From Emcibacteraceae bacterium (GTDB lineage: Bacteria > Pseudomonadota > Alphaproteobacteria > Sphingomonadales > Emcibacteraceae): DNA of 64,000 nt. This document shows positions 34,841-42,382 of the stretch, piece by piece. Location of the stretch: assembly GCA_021774795.1 (NCBI GenBank), contig JAJFIR010000053.1, positions 62,001-126,000 of the forward strand, given 5' to 3'. Within the stretch, counting starts at the first letter, position 1. The number at the start of each line of letters is the position of its first letter. Position numbers and translations under genes: made by a program. The notes below the pieces were generated by a model that ran no database searches, was not told where the DNA came from, and saw nothing but the letters and a program-made list of their open reading frames with translations.

Positions 34841-35467
34841 ATGAAAGAATTAGATTTTGCAGCATTATTATGTTCCCGCCTTTGCCATGATTTAATCAGT
34901 CCTGTTGGTGCCATTTCTAATGGTATAGAAATTCTCGGCGAGGAAGAAGACGAAGAAATGCGCGTTGAAGTCATGAAACTTATAGAACTTAGTGCGTCGC
35001 AAACATCTAACCGACTTAAGTTTTATAGATTAGCATTTGGGGCTGCCGGCGGCGTTGCATCACGCGTGCCTGTTAGAGCTGTCCACAGTGCTGCTGCATC
35101 CCTGTTTGAAGGAACGCCAATAAATTTGCAATGGAATTCTGAAGTTGGTGAAATAAGTAAAAATATTGTTAAGCTAGTTCTGAATTTAGTCCTCATAGCA
35201 AGTGAAAGTTTAATTCGGGGTGGGGATTTAACTGTGAACTTGGCAGAAAACAGAGGCGAAATTAATATTACCGTTTCAGCAACGGCAGAGCGATATATTA
35301 TGCAAGAAAAAGTTATCAAGATGCTTTGCGGTGAAATAACTAATACCGAAGGTGATCCAAAAATTGCGCCTGCGTACCTCGTCGCAAATGTCGTGGAAGA
35401 ATTAAACAGCAAAATAGAATACTTACCTGAAAGTGATAGTAGTTTCGCACTTAAAGTGAATATTTAA
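34841..35467 (+). CDS. chpT: Histidine phosphotransferase ChpT
   Basis: ChpT passes phosphate from the hybrid kinase CckA to CtrA and CpdR in the alphaproteobacterial cell-cycle phosphorelay. The 208-residue protein has the dimerisation helix with the phosphorylated histidine (CSRLCHDLISPVGAISNG, His16). A degenerate ATPase-like C-terminal domain without a nucleotide-binding G box follows (SASQTSNRLKFYRLAFGAAGG, VKLVLNLVLIASESLIRGG). In this window it lies upstream of the chemotaxis operon and a few kilobases from ctrA, its expected partner. Confidence 0.9.
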   Translation: MKELDFAALLCSRLCHDLISPVGAISNGIEILGEEEDEEMRVEVMKLIELSASQTSNRLKFYRLAFGAAGGVASRVPVRAVHSAAASLFEGTPINLQWNSEVGEISKNIVKLVLNLVLIASESLIRGGDLTVNLAENRGEINITVSATAERYIMQEKVIKMLCGEITNTEGDPKIAPAYLVANVVEELNSKIEYLPESDSSFALKVNI

Positions 35468-35601: not shown

Positions 35602-38600
35602 ATGGATGATTTGCTAAGTGAATTTCTAACAGAAACGTTTGAAAGTATTGAAGTAGTCGACGTCGAATTAGTGGAGCTTGAAAAAGATCCAAATAATAAA
35701 TCGGTCTTGGATAATATTTTCAGATTAGTTCATACAATTAAAGGGACTTGCGGATTTTTAGGACTGCCACGTCTGGAGGCAGTTGCCCATTCAGGTGAAA
35801 ATGTTCTCGGTAAATTCCGCGATGGCGAAATGGATGTCACGCCGGAAGCGGTTACATTAATTTTGAAAGCTCTTGATCGTATAAAAGAAATTTTAGTTGG
35901 TCTTGAGGAAACGCAGGAAGAACCGCAGGGCGATGACAGTGCCATCATTAATGATTTAAATGCCATGGCTGAAGGTAAATATACTGGTCAAAACGAAGTA
36001 GAAGAACCTCTGGCAGTGGTGCCTGAGGTTGAAGCACCAATTGAAGTGACGGATGAGCGTCCGACTGTTCCGGGTGAAGTAACACTCGATGAACTCGAAG
36101 CCGCATTTCTCGCTGCGCCTGGCCCGGAAGAAGAGGCAGTATCAGAAACTGAAGTATCCCAATCTGAGAATAAGCTGGACAATATTGGTGGAGCTGAGAC
36201 AATAGCGGTTCTTTCACATCTTTTTCACAATCGAATTTCTTCTGATTTATCGTTAAAGAATTTACTCGATAATTCTGATCTGAGGAAAAGCAAAAAGGCT
36301 GTTGAAGAATTTTTTCTATCTTCTTTGAAGCAAGAGCAATGTGACGAAAGTATAGTAGAAAAGTCATTTTCAAACTTTATAAGCAATGGAATTACAGAAG
36401 AACAGATCGGTAAAACTGCTGCACAACTATCAAGCGTCCTCGAAGAAATGAAAATTTCACCGCTGGGAGCCGAATTTGTTGTTGAAATTTATCGGCAAAG
36501 TTCTGTGACGATGCTTGGCGCAGTAACAAAGAGCCTAAAGCCAGGCAATGAGGTAAAAAAACCTGAAGAAGCGGCAAAAGCCGGTAAAGCGAAAGAAACC
36601 AGTATTGCCAACCAATCTATTCGTGTGGCAGTCGATGTATTAGATAATTTGATGAACATGGTTAGTGAGTTGGTTTTAACCCGTAATCAGCTTATGCAAA
36701 TCTCACGTCGTACTGGCGGAGATAGCGAATTTAGTGTTCCTCTTCAACGCCTTAGCCAATGTACTACCGAATTACAAGAAGGTGTTATGAAGACCAGAAT
36801 GCAACCCATTGGAAATGCTTGGTCGAAATTGCCAAGAATTATTCGTGATTTACAATTGGAACTTGGTAAGAAAATCGAACTTCAAATGCTTGGAGCTGAT
36901 ACGGAACTTGATCGCCAGGTTTTAGAACTTATTAAAGATCCTCTAACGCATATGATTAGAAATTCCGCAGATCATGGAATTGAAACAATAGAAGACCGTA
37001 TTGCGGCCGACAAAAAAGAAACCGGTACCATCCGCCTTAACGCATTTCATGAAGGTGGGCAAATAATCATCGAAATATCTGATGATGGCGCTGGACTGCC
37101 TGTTGAACGCCTAAAAGCAAAAGCATTGTCAAATAATCTTGCAACGGCAGAAGAAATTGACGAAATGTCAGATCAGCAGATCCAAAGATTCATCTTCCAT
37201 GCAGGATTCTCAACGGCGCAAACTGTAACCAGTGTTTCTGGTCGTGGTGTCGGAATGGACGTTGTTCGGACAAATATCGAAAAAATTGGTGGCACGATTG
37301 AGTTAAAATCTACCGAGGGTAAAGGAACAACTTTTAGTATTAAAATTCCACTTACGCTTGCCATCGTTTCTGCTCTTATCGTTAAGTCTGGTGATGATAG
37401 ATATGCAATCCCCCAAATTAGTGTGCTTGAACTAGTAAGAGCATCCAAGGAATCCAGTCACAAAATCGAATATATAAATTCTACACCTGTGCTTAGATTG
37501 CGTGATCGTCTGCTTCCGCTATTGAACCTGAATAAAATATTGGGTTTTGAAGAAGAAGTAGATATGGAAGAGAAAGTCGATAGTGAGCCATCCGAAATTG
37601 CAACATCGGACGACTTTATAATCATTACACAAGTTGGCGACTTTACATTCGGTATTGTTGTGGACCAGGTATTTGACACTGAGGAAATTGTTGTTAAGCC
37701 TGTCGCTCCAATTTTACGGGATTTATCAGTATTCTCTGGAAATACAATTTTGGGAGACGGGACCGTTATAATGATCCTTGATCCAAATGGTATTGCCAAT
37801 GAGGCAAGTGAAGTAATGACTGACTTGGCTGATCAAAGAGCAGAAGAGGAGGAAGACAAAACAGTCTCAAAAACTGATGACAGAGAAGCTGTTTTATTGT
37901 TCCGTGCTGGAGGAGATACTATGAGAGCGGTTCCACTTGCTCTGGTTTCCCGACTTGAAGAAATAGATGTGAGCAAGATCGAAGTATCTGAGGGCGCAAA
38001 AATGGTTCAATATAGAGGCAAGTTAATGCCACTTGTTTTGATCAATGATCAATATGATCTCAAAACGGAAGGGCGACAATCAATGCTCGTATTCACCGAT
38101 GATGATAAGGCAATGGGGATTATCGTTGATGAAATAACCGACATTAAAGAAGATCACATAAATGTCGAACTTAATTCGAAAGCAATTGGGCAATTAGGCA
38201 CAGCGATTATTGATGATAAAGCAACAGAAGTCATTGATATTGCATATTATTTTGAAAAAACGTTTAATGATTGGCAGCTTGGCGGAGAGCATATACCTGC
38301 AGAAACCAGCTCTAAGCGTAAAAGTATCTTACTGGTAGATGATAGTGCATTTTTCCTTAATTTATTGAAGCCGCTTCTAACAGCGTCTGGCTACAAGGTA
38401 ACACTTGCTACTACGGCTAGTGAAGCATTAGAAATGCGCGAACAGGGTTTGCGTTTTGACCTGATTGTTAGCGATATTGATATGCCGGAAATGAATGGAT
38501 TTGAATTTGCTGAAGAAGTGCGGGATGTAGGGCCATGGCAAGAAATACCAATGGTTGCGCTATCAGCTAATAATTCAGAAGCGAGATCTAAACGCGGCAA

Positions 38601-38697
38601 AGAAGCGGGGTTTGATAATTATGTCGAGAAATTGGATCGAGATACGTTGATCAAGGCCATAGAAGAACAAATATGTGAGCAAGAAACTGCTGCCTAA
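35602..38697 (+). CDS. cheA: Chemotaxis hybrid histidine kinase CheA with globin-like insert
   Basis: Central chemotaxis kinase of 1031 residues, much longer than the usual 650-700. Order of domains: Hpt (1-105, phospho-His44 in RLVHTIKGTCGFLG); an acidic linker (106-190); a helical segment at about 191-310 that resembles a truncated globin; dimerisation (335-400); HATPase (N box HMIRNSADHGIE at 450-461, ISDDGAGLP, GRGVGMDVV); a CheW domain (about 583-735); a second CheW-like domain (about 760-890); and a C-terminal receiver (907-1025, Asp958). The globin-like part aligns without gaps over 55 residues to the start of the 2/2 globin consensus (IGGAETIAVLSHLFHNRISSD) but has no F-helix histidine. 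First gene of cheAWYBR. Confidence 0.95.
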   Translation: MDDLLSEFLTETFESIEVVDVELVELEKDPNNKSVLDNIFRLVHTIKGTCGFLGLPRLEAVAHSGENVLGKFRDGEMDVTPEAVTLILKALDRIKEILVGLEETQEEPQGDDSAIINDLNAMAEGKYTGQNEVEEPLAVVPEVEAPIEVTDERPTVPGEVTLDELEAAFLAAPGPEEEAVSETEVSQSENKLDNIGGAETIAVLSHLFHNRISSDLSLKNLLDNSDLRKSKKAVEEFFLSSLKQEQCDESIVEKSFSNFISNGITEEQIGKTAAQLSSVLEEMKISPLGAEFVVEIYRQSSVTMLGAVTKSLKPGNEVKKPEEAAKAGKAKETSIANQSIRVAVDVLDNLMNMVSELVLTRNQLMQISRRTGGDSEFSVPLQRLSQCTTELQEGVMKTRMQPIGNAWSKLPRIIRDLQLELGKKIELQMLGADTELDRQVLELIKDPLTHMIRNSADHGIETIEDRIAADKKETGTIRLNAFHEGGQIIIEISDDGAGLPVERLKAKALSNNLATAEEIDEMSDQQIQRFIFHAGFSTAQTVTSVSGRGVGMDVVRTNIEKIGGTIELKSTEGKGTTFSIKIPLTLAIVSALIVKSGDDRYAIPQISVLELVRASKESSHKIEYINSTPVLRLRDRLLPLLNLNKILGFEEEVDMEEKVDSEPSEIATSDDFIIITQVGDFTFGIVVDQVFDTEEIVVKPVAPILRDLSVFSGNTILGDGTVIMILDPNGIANEASEVMTDLADQRAEEEEDKTVSKTDDREAVLLFRAGGDTMRAVPLALVSRLEEIDVSKIEVSEGAKMVQYRGKLMPLVLINDQYDLKTEGRQSMLVFTDDDKAMGIIVDEITDIKEDHINVELNSKAIGQLGTAIIDDKATEVIDIAYYFEKTFNDWQLGGEHIPAETSSKRKSILLVDDSAFFLNLLKPLLTASGYKVTLATTASEALEMREQGLRFDLIVSDIDMPEMNGFEFAEEVRDVGPWQEIPMVALSANNSEARSKRGKEAGFDNYVEKLDRDTLIKAIEEQICEQETAA

Positions 38698-38735: not shown

Positions 38736-39188
38736 ATGAACGAATTAAATAAAAATGATTTTGTTACAATATGGTTAGATGGCCAAATGTGTGGGATACC
38801 GGTTTTACAAGTTCACGATGTGTTATCGACACAAGTAATTACTAAAATCCCGCAGTCGCCGGATTGGGTAGCGGGTGTATTAAATTTGCGAGGCCAAATT
38901 GTCACGGCGATTGATTTACGTAAAAGATTAGAGCTGGGAGAGCGTGAGGACGACGAAGATAATATGAATGTTGTAGTGGAATATGAAAATGAGCCATACA
39001 GCCTGATTATTGATAAAGTGGGGGATGTATTATCTCTCTCTGAGGAATTCTTCGAGCGAAATCCCGTTACTTTGGAAGCTTGTTGGCAAGGCATTTCTAG
39101 TGGAATTTTCCGCCTCGAAAATGATCTTCTCGTGATATTGGATATTGAAAAACTGCTCAGTTTTGAAGAATCGAAGATTGCCGCATAA
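38736..39188 (+). CDS. cheW: Chemotaxis coupling protein CheW
   Basis: Adaptor connecting chemoreceptors to CheA. With ATG 38736 it has 150 residues; AAGGA sits six bases upstream of this ATG. An in-frame GTG at 38715 lies seven codons earlier but has no ribosome site. The two SH3-like subdomains are visible: WLDGQMCGIPVLQVHDVL, then VAGVLNLRGQIVTAIDLRKRL, and later LIIDKVGDVLSLSEEFFERNP. It lies between cheA and cheY in the same direction. Confidence 0.93.
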   Translation: MNELNKNDFVTIWLDGQMCGIPVLQVHDVLSTQVITKIPQSPDWVAGVLNLRGQIVTAIDLRKRLELGEREDDEDNMNVVVEYENEPYSLIIDKVGDVLSLSEEFFERNPVTLEACWQGISSGIFRLENDLLVILDIEKLLSFEESKIAA

Positions 39189-39229: not shown

Positions 39230-39595
39230 ATGAAGTCATGTCTCGTGGTTGACGATTCTAAGATTATTAGAAAAGTCGCAAGAAGAATATTGGAGGAGCT
39301 GAATTTTGATATTCAGGAAGCCGTTGATGGTCAGGATGCGCTAGACAACTGCAAAAGCGCGATGCCTGATGTTGTGTTACTTGATTGGAATATGCCAGTG
39401 ATGAATGGCTTGGATTTTCTAAAAGCTTTAAGGAAAACAGAGGGCGGAGCGGAACCTGTAGTCGTTTTTTGTACAACAGAAAATGATATGTCACATATTA
39501 GCGCGGCGATTTCAGCGGGTGCAGATGAGTATATCATGAAGCCATTTGATCGCGAGATTATTGAATCAAAATTTGTGCAAGTTGGATTATTATAA
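39230..39595 (+). CDS. cheY: Single-domain response regulator CheY
   Basis: Receiver-only protein that carries phosphate from CheA to the flagellar switch. From ATG 39230 it has 121 residues (an in-frame TTG exists four codons upstream; GGAA just before the ATG favours the latter). The acidic pocket is VVDDSK, the phosphorylation site is in VVLLDWNMPVMNGLDFL, the switch threonine is in VVFCTTEND, and the lysine is in YIMKPFD. The next gene, cheB, starts 16 bases after the stop. Confidence 0.94.
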   Translation: MKSCLVVDDSKIIRKVARRILEELNFDIQEAVDGQDALDNCKSAMPDVVLLDWNMPVMNGLDFLKALRKTEGGAEPVVVFCTTENDMSHISAAISAGADEYIMKPFDREIIESKFVQVGLL

Positions 39596-39611: not shown

Positions 39612-40745
39612 ATGGAAAAAAGTAGTGTGGGAAAAGATAATAAAAGAGCGGCTCCATACCAAGTAATGTTAGTTGACGACTCTTCCGTGATCAGAGGTGT
39701 GCTATCCCGATGGTTAGCAGCAGACCCGGCCATTGAAATTGTAGCCAGCGTTGCCAACGGACAAGCTGCCGTCAATTCTATAGATCGTGTTGATCCCGAG
39801 ATAGTGGTTTTGGATATCGAGATGCCTGTAATGGACGGTCTAACCGCGTTGCCGTTAATTTTGAAAGCAAAGCCCGATGTGCAGGTATTGATGTCCTCTA
39901 CACTTACGTCAAAAAATGCTAAAATCAGTTTGCAAGCCATGTCGCTCGGTGCCGCAGACTATATCCCGAAACCCTCGACGAATAGGGAAGTAATTTCATC
40001 ACAATCCTTTCAAGACGAAATTATCGGAAAAATTAAGGGTTTGGCGGAGAGTAAAAGAAAGCAGCTTGGTCTGGCTCTCTATAAAGAAGGTAGAACCAAG
40101 AACACCGCGACAAAGCCGCCTGATAAGCTTAAAAAAGAAATTAATTTACATAGTCAATCATTAACGATGCCGAAAATTATAGGCATAGGCAGCTCTACCG
40201 GCGGGCCACAAGCATTGCTTAAATTTTTAAGTGGTATAAAGGATGATCTCAAATTGCCGGTTGTGATTACACAGCATATGCCTGCTGCATTTACTAAAAT
40301 TTTGGCCGGTCACTTAACGAAAGCGACAGGACTTAACTGTTCAGAAGCCACGGACGGGATGATATTAGAGGGTGGTCGCGTTTATATCGCGCCCGGAGAA
40401 TATCACATGGTCGTTTCAAAAGAGGACGACAGGTACTATTTGAGACTTAATCAAGAAGCACCTGAAAATTTTTGTCGTCCTTCTGTCAATCCCATGTTTA
40501 AAAGCCTGACCCAGGAATTTGGTGCGTCAGTTCTTGGTGTAATATTAACGGGAATGGGGCATGACGGACTAGAGGGTAGTAAAATAATTGTTGATGGAGG
40601 TGGTACTATTATCGCACAAGATGAAGAAACCAGTGTTGTGTGGGGAATGCCCGGTGCGGTTAGCGAGGCGGGTATTTGTTCCGCAGTTATGCCTATCGAT
40701 CAATTAGCGTCTAAAGCTCAACGAATAGTTCAGGGAGACCGATGA
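39612..40745 (+). CDS. cheB: Chemotaxis glutamate methylesterase/deamidase CheB
   Basis: Removes methyl groups from chemoreceptors when phosphorylated by CheA, giving adaptation. From ATG 39612 it is 377 residues. An N-terminal receiver (MLVDDSSVIRG, VVLDIEMPVMDGLTALP, PKPST) is joined by a linker to the esterase domain with the Ser in GIGSSTGGPQALLKFL, the His in VVITQHMPAAFTK and the Asp in GVILTGMGHDGLEG. The start is uncertain: the frame is open back into cheY, and GTG 39597 is an alternative; no clear ribosome site decides. Its TGA overlaps the cheR ATG. Confidence 0.94.
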   Translation: MEKSSVGKDNKRAAPYQVMLVDDSSVIRGVLSRWLAADPAIEIVASVANGQAAVNSIDRVDPEIVVLDIEMPVMDGLTALPLILKAKPDVQVLMSSTLTSKNAKISLQAMSLGAADYIPKPSTNREVISSQSFQDEIIGKIKGLAESKRKQLGLALYKEGRTKNTATKPPDKLKKEINLHSQSLTMPKIIGIGSSTGGPQALLKFLSGIKDDLKLPVVITQHMPAAFTKILAGHLTKATGLNCSEATDGMILEGGRVYIAPGEYHMVVSKEDDRYYLRLNQEAPENFCRPSVNPMFKSLTQEFGASVLGVILTGMGHDGLEGSKIIVDGGGTIIAQDEETSVVWGMPGAVSEAGICSAVMPIDQLASKAQRIVQGDR

Positions 40746-41593
40746 TGCGATCAGAAGATTTTGAACTAATCAGCGGACTTCTCAAACAACGTTCCGGATT
40801 AATATTACCCGCCGATAAAGTGTATTTATTGGAAAGCCGTCTTACGCCGATAGCCCATAAAAGAGGATTGGAAACTCTTGATGACCTCGTTAACGAGGTG
40901 CGCTTAAAGCGCAAAGAAGACTTACTTGTTGAAATTACAGAAGCGATGACAACCAACGAGTCATTTTTCTTTCGCGACAATAAACCGTTTGACTTATTTA
41001 AAGATACGGTTATGCCGCAGCTGATTGAAAGCAGAGCAAATCAAAAGCGGATTAGAATTTGGTGTGCTGCTGCATCGACTGGTCAAGAGCCATATTCCCT
41101 GGCAATTATTTTGAAAGAAATGGCAGCAAAACTGGTGGGCTGGAAAGTCGAGATAGTTGGCACCGATATTTCTCAGCAGGTTCTGGATAAAGCAAAAGAG
41201 GGTATGTTTTCGCAATTTGAAGTCCAACGGGGTTTGCCAATTCAATTATTGATCAAATATTTTAACCAGGTTGGCGATTTATGGCAAATATCTGACGATA
41301 TAAAAACCATGGTAACTTATAAAATGTTCAATCTATTGGAACCCTTTTCATCGCTGGGTTCGTTCGATGTAATTTTCTGCCGAAATGTTCTTATTTATTT
41401 TGATCAACCAACAAAAACGCAGGTTCTTGAGAAAATGAGAAAACTCATTCCGGACGATGGCACTCTTTTCTTAGGTGCTGCCGAAACTGTTCTCGGGATT
41501 ACGGATCAATTTAAACCCGTTCAAGGGCAACGCGGATTATATTCTACATCTAATGCTACCGATGATTTGATTGGTAAGTTAAAAGCTGTCTGA
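40742..41593 (+). CDS. cheR: Chemotaxis protein methyltransferase CheR
   Basis: Uses SAM to methylate glutamates on chemoreceptors, opposing CheB. The 283-residue protein has the N-terminal all-helical domain (SGLLKQRSGLILPADKVYLLESRL), then the Rossmann domain beginning with TNESFFFRDNKPFDLF, the SAM motif IRIWCAAASTGQEPYSLA, the acidic EIVGTDIS, and the late motif FDVIFCRNVLIYFD. It starts with ATGATG overlapping the cheB stop, so the first or second ATG may be used. An intrinsic terminator follows. Confidence 0.96.
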   Translation: MMRSEDFELISGLLKQRSGLILPADKVYLLESRLTPIAHKRGLETLDDLVNEVRLKRKEDLLVEITEAMTTNESFFFRDNKPFDLFKDTVMPQLIESRANQKRIRIWCAAASTGQEPYSLAIILKEMAAKLVGWKVEIVGTDISQQVLDKAKEGMFSQFEVQRGLPIQLLIKYFNQVGDLWQISDDIKTMVTYKMFNLLEPFSSLGSFDVIFCRNVLIYFDQPTKTQVLEKMRKLIPDDGTLFLGAAETVLGITDQFKPVQGQRGLYSTSNATDDLIGKLKAV

Positions 41594-41677: not shown

Positions 41678-42382
41678 TTAGCCCGTAGCAGCTATTGATG
41701 ATCCATCTTCCTCCGGATCACGAAGCACATAGCCACGACCCCAAACGGTTTCAATATAGTTCTCACCGCTGATTGAGGCGAGTTTTTTTCGTAATTTACA
41801 AATAAACACGTCAATAATTTTAAGTTCTGGTTCGTCCATACCGCCGTAAAGATGGTTTAAGAACATCTCTTTGGTAAGTGTCGTTGTTTTACGAAGAGAA
41901 AGCAGCTCAAGCATTGCGTATTCCTTGCCTGTAAGATGAACACGTTGACCGTCGATTTCCACTGTTTTCTTATCCAAATTAACTGATAGTTTTCCTGTTC
42001 TGATAATGGACTCTGCGTGCCCTTTAGAACGACGAATTATCGCCTGAATGCGAGCCACTAATTCTTCTTTATAGAAAGGTTTTGTAAGATAATCATCTGC
42101 ACCAAAACCAAGCCCTTTGACTTTATTTTCTAGCTCAACCATGCCTGAGAGAATTAAAATTGGTGTAGTCACTTTTGATAGGCGAAGTTTTTTCAAAACA
42201 TCGTATCCGTGCATATCCGGCAGATTTAAATCTAATAGAATGATGTCATAATCATATAATTTCCCTAGATCTATACCCTCTTCTCCCAAATCAGTGCTAT
42301 AAATGTTAAACCCCTCGGCTGAAAGCATTAATTCGATACTTTTCGATGTGGAAGGATCATCTTCTATGAGTAAAACCCGCAT
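41678..42382 (-). CDS. ctrA: Cell-cycle master response regulator CtrA
   Basis: OmpR-type response regulator that controls flagellar, chemotaxis, division and replication genes in alphaproteobacteria. At 234 residues it matches CtrA closely: receiver [20 protein letters not shown] with phospho-acceptor Asp51 in [36 protein letters not shown], and a winged-helix domain ending [35 protein letters not shown] and GRGYVLRDP. CtrA is normally phosphorylated through ChpT, whose gene is at 34.8 kb, and restrained by SciP, at 57.6 kb. Divergent from fliI across an AT-rich gap with TTAACC sites. Confidence 0.95.

Follow-up and report, generated by a model that had tools for sequence, protein, structure and literature searches.

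The window, the whole stretch of 64,000 nucleotides analysed here, comes from an Emcibacteraceae bacterium (Alphaproteobacteria; contig JAJFIR010000053.1) and contains a che cluster. This opens with an HPTransfase gene (PF10090) that we presume to be ChpT and continues with cheA, cheW, a cheY-like gene, cheB and cheR, next to a gene for a CtrA-like response regulator (Table 1). A sequence-only reading of this DNA had assigned the segment 36172-36531 (+) to CheA residues 191-310 and placed it as an insert between the Hpt and dimerisation domains, where P2 would be expected. The 1031-aa CheA open reading frame (35602-38697, +) contains the segment in frame, and the Pfam layout, Hpt - globin - P3 without P2, agrees with that placement. 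In Escherichia coli CheA, P2 lies between the phosphotransfer and dimerisation domains. We take PF07194 and PF09078 to be the P2 accessions and P2 to be an alpha-beta fold; neither accession is listed for the window CheA at E<=10 in a Pfam scan, and the predicted model has no strand between Hpt and P3, on which grounds we rejected P2 as the identity of the insert. By its predicted domain layout (Hpt, P3, P4, two CheW stretches and a C-terminal REC) the window CheA is an F5-class CheA, following the description of the class in the available text of PMC10782961. It shares the two CheW stretches, the C-terminal REC and the lack of P2 with that class, for which Rhodospirillum centenum, Azospirillum brasilense, Caulobacter and Azorhizobium are named there.

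Table 1 Features of the che cluster and of its CheA in the window.
Feature	Position	Strand	Evidence
ChpT-like histidine phosphotransferase gene, head of che cluster	34841..35467	+	PF10090 HPTransfase, E 1.5e-21
cheA, 1031 aa	35602..38697	+	Hpt - globin - P3 - HATPase - CheW (two stretches) - REC, without P2
Hpt (P1), residues 3-96	35608..35889	+	PF01627, E 3.5e-16
Linker motif PGEVTLDELEAAFLAAPGPE, residues 157-176	36070..36129	+	Invariant columns; lone predicted helix 162-171 between low-confidence stretches
Truncated-globin (2/2) domain, residues 191-312, without haem ligands	36172..36537	+	Pfam, profile searches, predicted model
Clade-specific near-invariant residues His206 (B7), Leu207, Arg211 (B12), Lys231 (E8)	36217..36294	+	50 order sequences
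His209, globin B10 (Tyr in the genome's standalone trHb and in haem-type domains)	36226..36228	+	Alignment
Phe256, proximal F8 (His in the standalone trHb and in haem-type domains)	36367..36369	+	Alignment
P3 dimerisation domain, residues 337-398	36610..36795	+	PF02895, E 1.1e-17
P4 ATPase domain, residues 446-585	36937..37356	+	PF02518, E 9e-20
CheW-like (P5) domain no. 1, residues 591-734	37372..37803	+	PF01584, E 4.6e-31; two CheW stretches in CheA by Pfam
C-terminal receiver (REC), residues 909-1021	38326..38664	+	PF00072, E 3.6e-20
cheW	38739..39188	+	PF01584, E 1.6e-31
cheY-like single receiver	39230..39595	+	PF00072, E 3.8e-29
cheB	39615..40745	+	PF01339, E 8e-60
cheR	40742..41593	+	PF01739, E 6.9e-62
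CtrA-like response regulator adjoining che cluster	41678..42382	-	PF00072 and PF00486

Sequence comparison and predicted structure together identify residues 191-312 as a group-1 truncated (2/2) globin (trHb). Truncated-globin homology had been proposed for the insert on the strength of features that include a GG motif, Phe208, an Arg and an Asp. These residues (Arg211 and Asp215 for the last two) and the noted His209 are all present; the end of the domain lies near residue 312 rather than 310. The PF01152 (Bac_globin) profile scores the isolated 120-aa segment at 25.8 bits (E 1.3e-5; cut-off 21) and the whole CheA at 21.5 bits, matching residues 193-241. At E<=1 it matches 13 of 21 order homologues and misses the other 8. 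Because the match covers the first half of the domain only, and because of the 13/21 figure, this evidence taken alone is thin. A profile built from 21 CheA inserts, however, finds solved group-1 trHbs, the best at E 1e-14 over 112 positions, and the window insert scores 37 bits against a profile made from 29 standalone alphaproteobacterial trHbs. With search size set to 1000, this second profile finds 37 of the 38 order domains at E<1e-3, the remaining one scoring 1.3 bits. Shuffled segments (1,900 in all) reached at most 7.8 bits against the standalone profile and reversed segments at most 4.2 bits, far below the insert, and a chance match to globins was rejected on this basis. Against a profile drawn from 17 CheA globins at class level, ten of them haem-type (as defined below) and seven degenerate, hhalign gives the order inserts 99.5% over 115 columns.

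An AlphaFold2 model of the window segment, computed with 34 relatives, has a pLDDT of 88.5 and eight helices in globin order with 2/2 topology and no strands. Its best structural match by VIA-align is 1dlw (Z 15.4, 112 residues, rmsd 2.4), most other group-1 trHbs score Z 13-14.5, and all 50 entries listed are globins. Foldseek gives a probability of 1.00 with modest E-values (best 1.3e-3). A profile search and a predicted structure had both been named as checks on the globin assignment, and both bear it out: matches lie above the Pfam cut-off and reach solved globins, and the predicted topology is that of a trHb and not of P2. Helices G and H span residues 266-282 and 287-312 in the model, so that the stretch EEMKISPLG, previously read as G/H helices, does fall in the G-H region but is predicted to form the G-H corner, not helix H.

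Since trHbs come first in both the insert-profile search and the structure comparison, the insert is not closest to 3/3 protoglobin-type sensor globins. Protoglobin (PF11563) is absent from the Pfam matches listed for the window CheA; it matches 6 of the 17 sequences of alignment set A4, with a best E of 1e-6. The insert had also been likened to the non-haem globin of RsbR, a stressosome protein that carries a STAS domain. The analogy stands in idea, both being haem-less globin folds in signalling proteins, but the RsbR N-terminal domain (PDB 2bnl) is structurally farther from the insert than the trHbs are (Z 9.9) and RsbR is absent from the 32 sequence matches of the insert profile; sequence kinship is to group-1 trHbs.

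In a model of residues 1-409 (pLDDT 78.4, pTM 0.37), three low-confidence stretches separate four helical elements: Hpt, a lone helix at 162-171, the globin at 191-312 and P3. No strand is predicted from Hpt to P3. pLDDT falls below 50 at residues 131-151, 175-188 and 314-342 and is 90-96 in the globin blocks. The low-confidence stretches flanking the globin are probably flexible linkers.

The globin is widespread in the order of the window. From 60 genomes searched we obtained 45 countable CheA orthologues, leaving uncounted four other, distant CheAs (L049-L052) and one at a contig end (L047). Thirty-eight of the 45 carry the domain, 22 of 24 in the family of the window and 16 of 21 in other families; among the matches listed (the best 80 of 117 relatives), Emcibacter and Pseudokordiimonas are carriers, as are Kordiimonas (K. 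laminariae), Eilatimonas (E. milleporae DSM 25217) and Rhodothalassium (R. salexigens DSM 2132). The other seven lack the domain cleanly, the full-length ones being in frame, and one of them (L020, with the same protein length and identity as L255) belongs to the genus of the window, so that the domain is dispensable.

Haem-ligand positions were assigned from an alignment anchored on L031 (G000:C49:188030-188362), a standalone group-1 trHb of the window's own genome that has Tyr at B10 and His at F8. L031 adjoins a reading frame that by eye looks ferredoxin/reductase-like. Loss of the haem ligand had been claimed for the window domain, and the alignment agrees: B10 is His209, so that the B9-B10 Phe-Tyr pair of group-1 trHbs is here Phe208-His209, F8 is Phe256, and residues 210-310 contain no histidine, as the sequence-only reading had noted. 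The survey of homologues proposed alongside that reading extends the result to the order. Among the 38 order domains B10 is His in 22, Ala in 11, Ser in 2 and Cys, Leu or Glu in one each, and Tyr in none; the Kordiimonas domains have Ala or Ser. F8 is Phe in 22, Leu in 9, Ile in 3, Met in 2 and Gly or Cys in one each, and His in none; ten domains have a His six columns further on. Position E11 holds Met, Phe or Val in 32 of 38. In all, the haem-related positions that have drifted in the order are Tyr B10, Gln E11, the GGP turn, Tyr248, Gly250, His F8 and two helix-G His. We infer from these residues that the window globin carries no haem; with both ligands replaced, it should fold without it. 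Compared with group-1 trHbs (PF01152: MtbHbN, Chlamydomonas THB1, Paramecium Hb and L031), the insert shares the profile, the GG motif, B9 Phe, E14/E15 Phe, helix order and length, but it lacks F8 His, B10 Tyr, E11 Gln and the GGP turn and is embedded in a kinase.

The main addition to the earlier reading is that CheAs of other Alphaproteobacteria appear, from their ligand residues, to carry a haem-type version of the domain at the same site. We defined haem-type domains by B10 Tyr together with F8 His, so their uniformity at these two positions is by construction. Ten of 61 aligned CheA-embedded domains are haem-type, in 9 genomes from 7 families of the class, and 7 of the ten have Gln at E11. 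Eight lie at the same Hpt-P3 site (G117, G149, G153, G181, G253, G265, G284 and G362) and two inside the first CheW domain (G117 and G139). In these last two genomes a second, haem-type trHb splits the Pfam CheW (P5) match (L112 residues 694-829; L114 residues 645-780); at the usual site G117 has a haem-type domain and G139 a degenerate one. The thirteen other class domains include none with Tyr at B10, and F8 His is missing from twelve of them, all but the first domain of L114. Four of the thirteen have a gap at F8 with a His some columns off, so their ligand state depends on the alignment. Class and order counts together indicate that the B10 Tyr/F8 His pair is kept or lost nearly together.

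Of three haem-type neighbourhoods examined, that of G362 (L307) reproduces the gene order of the window, ChpT-CheA-CheW-CheY-CheB-CheR with CtrA beside it. The order is absent from the other two (G181 and G149), in which CheA and CheW are adjacent and the rest is different or farther away. Azospirillum sp. B510 has the same che cluster order as the window, with a CtrA-annotated gene beyond it, but its orthologous CheA has no globin match. At class level, 72 of 93 CheAs fetched are without globin, and the domain occurs in 20 of 92 genomes (12 of 57 families). The 92 comprise genomes from 89 high-scoring matches of a globin-bearing query, some skipped, and three from a globin search (G117, G139 and G253), so that 20 of 92, drawn mainly from best matches of such a query, is not a prevalence.

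Several further loci were noted in these searches. G284 has two CheA loci (L127 and L172), one with a haem-type and one with a degenerate globin; its estimated contamination of 10% means that it may be a mixture. Two proteins, L113 (955 aa) and L125 (cut by a contig end), have an N-terminal trHb with intact ligands followed by repeated PAS-like blocks, and L113 has an MCP-like C-terminus; with domains named by eye, L113 is a candidate soluble aerotaxis receptor. Four long-frame matches from outside the class (L302-L305), among those listed from a 398-genome phylum search, look by eye like trHb genes that stand alone and whose frames read through, and not like CheA. L115-L121, L123, L124 and L217 are duplicates of other loci.

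In trees the domains of the order group together (99/95 on 10 rows; 99 on 21 rows). In the best tree they fall on the side of other degenerate CheA domains, with haem-type domains and then standalone trHbs further in, though the joining branches are weak. A single clade of all same-site CheA globins is neither rejected nor established (AU p 0.26), and a grouping of haem-type and degenerate CheA domains without the order is likewise not rejected (p 0.25); long branches make these trees, which leave out L017, L045, L135, L177 and others, near-copies among them, uncertain. On a CheA-core tree restricted to orthologues of the window CheA (FastTree, 135 rows) globin presence is patchy and the three states need 16 changes, a pattern compatible with one gain and many losses, several gains, or transfer. 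Given the haem-binding nature of the trHb family, the haem-type state presumably came first, and the window form looks like a haem-free state of a haem-type CheA-globin fusion.

By codon comparison, the globin domains of the order relatives are under purifying selection. Globin dN/dS is 0.05-0.14 in six usable order pairs (L009/L015, L008/L009, L006/L017, L026/L027, L030/L034 and L014/L018; not all independent), in which it is 0.00-0.04 for Hpt, 0.01-0.07 for the core and 0.04-1.15 for the linkers; the linker value is below the globin value in one of the six. Three pairs were saturated at synonymous sites, including the window's own L001/L003. A haem-type pair gives a globin dN/dS of 0.08, and for three degenerate pairs from elsewhere in the class the values are 0.03, 0.12 and 0.55 (L133/L134). 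Five residues that are not the haem-type consensus are near-invariant in 50 order sequences: Val203 (98%), His206 (98%), Leu207 (92%), Arg211 (92%) and Lys231 (98%). The 50 rows contain many close relatives and omit L045 and L296, the comparison set of 23 haem-type rows counts L031 twice and omits L139, and the helix labels in Table 1 are counted from B10 and E7. These near-invariants arise although the order sequences (alignment A3) are 14-53% identical to that of the window.

A second conserved element lies upstream of the globin. The linker motif (P)GEVSLEELEAAFxAAPGPDD is near-invariant in the order, occurring in 45 of 45 CheAs with or without globin, and weakens the idea of the globin as a simple substitute for P2. 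Outside the order the pattern, which was written from the order's sequences, is found in 0 of 21 globin CheAs versus 21 of 72 globin-less ones (Fisher p 0.003, uncorrected for kinship). Loci of Methylobacterium, Microvirga and Sneathiella are also among the matches listed. It is a candidate docking motif of P2-less F5 CheAs.

We give moderate credence to the reading that a group-1 trHb sits at the P2 place of an F5 CheA, descends from a haem-type forebear, has lost its ligands and now acts as a docking module. Tethered between two flexible linkers, the globin would act by docking; force transmitted to the kinase by a rigid helix is unlikely with such linkers. In a haem-type CheA, phosphotransfer would be tuned through the globin's choice of partner, which would shift with the O2/NO state of its haem; possible partners are CheY/CheB, ChpT or, within CheA, P1, P4 and the C-terminal receiver. 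In the window CheA the gas switch would have been lost and the fold retained by selection, with His206, Leu207, Arg211 and Lys231 on helices B and E as the putative docking surface. The window domain is thus read as, most probably, a module for docking or regulation on a tether. On the other side, the 72 of 93 class-level CheAs without globin mean that a docking aid at the Hpt-P3 site is not required, and the linker motif at 157-176, rather than the globin, may be the real docking site.

The retained fold could instead serve a new ligand: a haem-free globin binding another small molecule (lipid, quinone or redox cofactor) in the old haem pocket would give the kinase a receptor-independent input. 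The predominantly hydrophobic residues at F8 (Phe 22 and Leu 9 of 38) and E11 (32 of 38), and a pocket that changes while related domains stay under purifying selection, are consistent with such binding. We nevertheless consider it unlikely, because pocket positions vary (H, A, S, C, L or E at B10), which is unlike one specific pocket, whereas three near-invariants are polar or basic residues on helices B and E. Docking is preferred on this ground, and also because a domain with disordered linkers on both sides is unlikely to pass a rigid-body signal.

Somewhat less probable again is that haem sensing was lost and the fold persists as a relic or spacer without a specific role. Repeated clean losses (7 of 45 order CheAs) would fit a relic, as would a globin dN/dS that in the six usable pairs exceeds those of Hpt and the kinase core, the value of 0.55 in L133/L134 and the order domain that scores 1.3 bits against standalone trHbs. 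The low dN/dS of 0.05-0.14, the intact helices in predicted models and the 98% conservation in the order of residues that differ from the haem-type consensus argue against it.

We regard it as highly improbable that haem is still bound through unusual ligands, such as His209 at B10. In its favour are the B10 His of 22 of the 38 order domains, the near-invariant His206 and, in ten domains, the His six columns after F8, but F8 His is found in 0 of 38, no His follows residue 209 in the window domain, the haem-type E11 Gln, GGP turn, Tyr248 and two G-helix His are also gone, and Kordiimonas domains have Ala or Ser at B10. That the insert is P2 or an unrelated helical bundle matched by chance has a negligible probability: the half-length PF01152 match, 0.5 bit above cut-off for the whole protein, the 8 of 21 order members missed and the best Foldseek E of 1.3e-3 are outweighed by the profile match to a solved trHb (E 1e-14, 112 positions), hhalign 99.5% over 115 columns, Z 15.4 with globins only among 50 entries listed, the far lower shuffles and the absence of strands.

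Globins are attached to chemotaxis proteins elsewhere. In the portions of the sources available, HemAT is a globin-coupled aerotaxis receptor (PMC13401364) and a Corallococcus coralloides PAS-Bac_globin-MCP protein has its globin on a receptor (PMC6194562); in the window CheA the globin is likewise chemotaxis-attached, but inside the kinase and without haem ligands. Fusions of trHbs described in the accessible part of PMC7082302 (protein kinase and nitrate reductase, with an antibiotic monooxygenase in the reference list) also place a 2/2 globin module in a larger protein, and the 'protein kinase' fusion is given there without CheA being named. The CheA survey of Berry, Andrianova and Zhulin (PMC10782961), covering 13,673 sequences, gives P2, receiver and CheC/CheX as auxiliary domains in the text available; its main text does not contain 'globin' or 'heme', and in that text no globin is mentioned for the studied F5-class CheAs. 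Domain family and kinase class are thus both known, and we found no description of their combination, a globin inside CheA, in the open-licence literature.

With less than even confidence, we propose that CheA is a gas sensor in several alphaproteobacterial lineages, a haem globin at the P1-P3 site, and in two genomes another within the CheW domain, letting O2/NO set phosphotransfer without a receptor, and that in the order of the window it was converted to a haem-free docking or ligand domain with conserved His, Arg and Lys. The kinase may sense gas directly, or an old gas sensor may have become something else. If this proposal is true, CheA, described in the abstract of PMC10782961 as lacking a sensor (input) domain, would have a built-in one, and the transition from haem to haem-free globin would be traceable. 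The existence of CheA globins with and without haem ligands makes direct gas input to the kinase testable, and a single orthologous gene that exists in haem-type, haem-free and domain-less forms offers a way to see what a globin does after giving up its haem.
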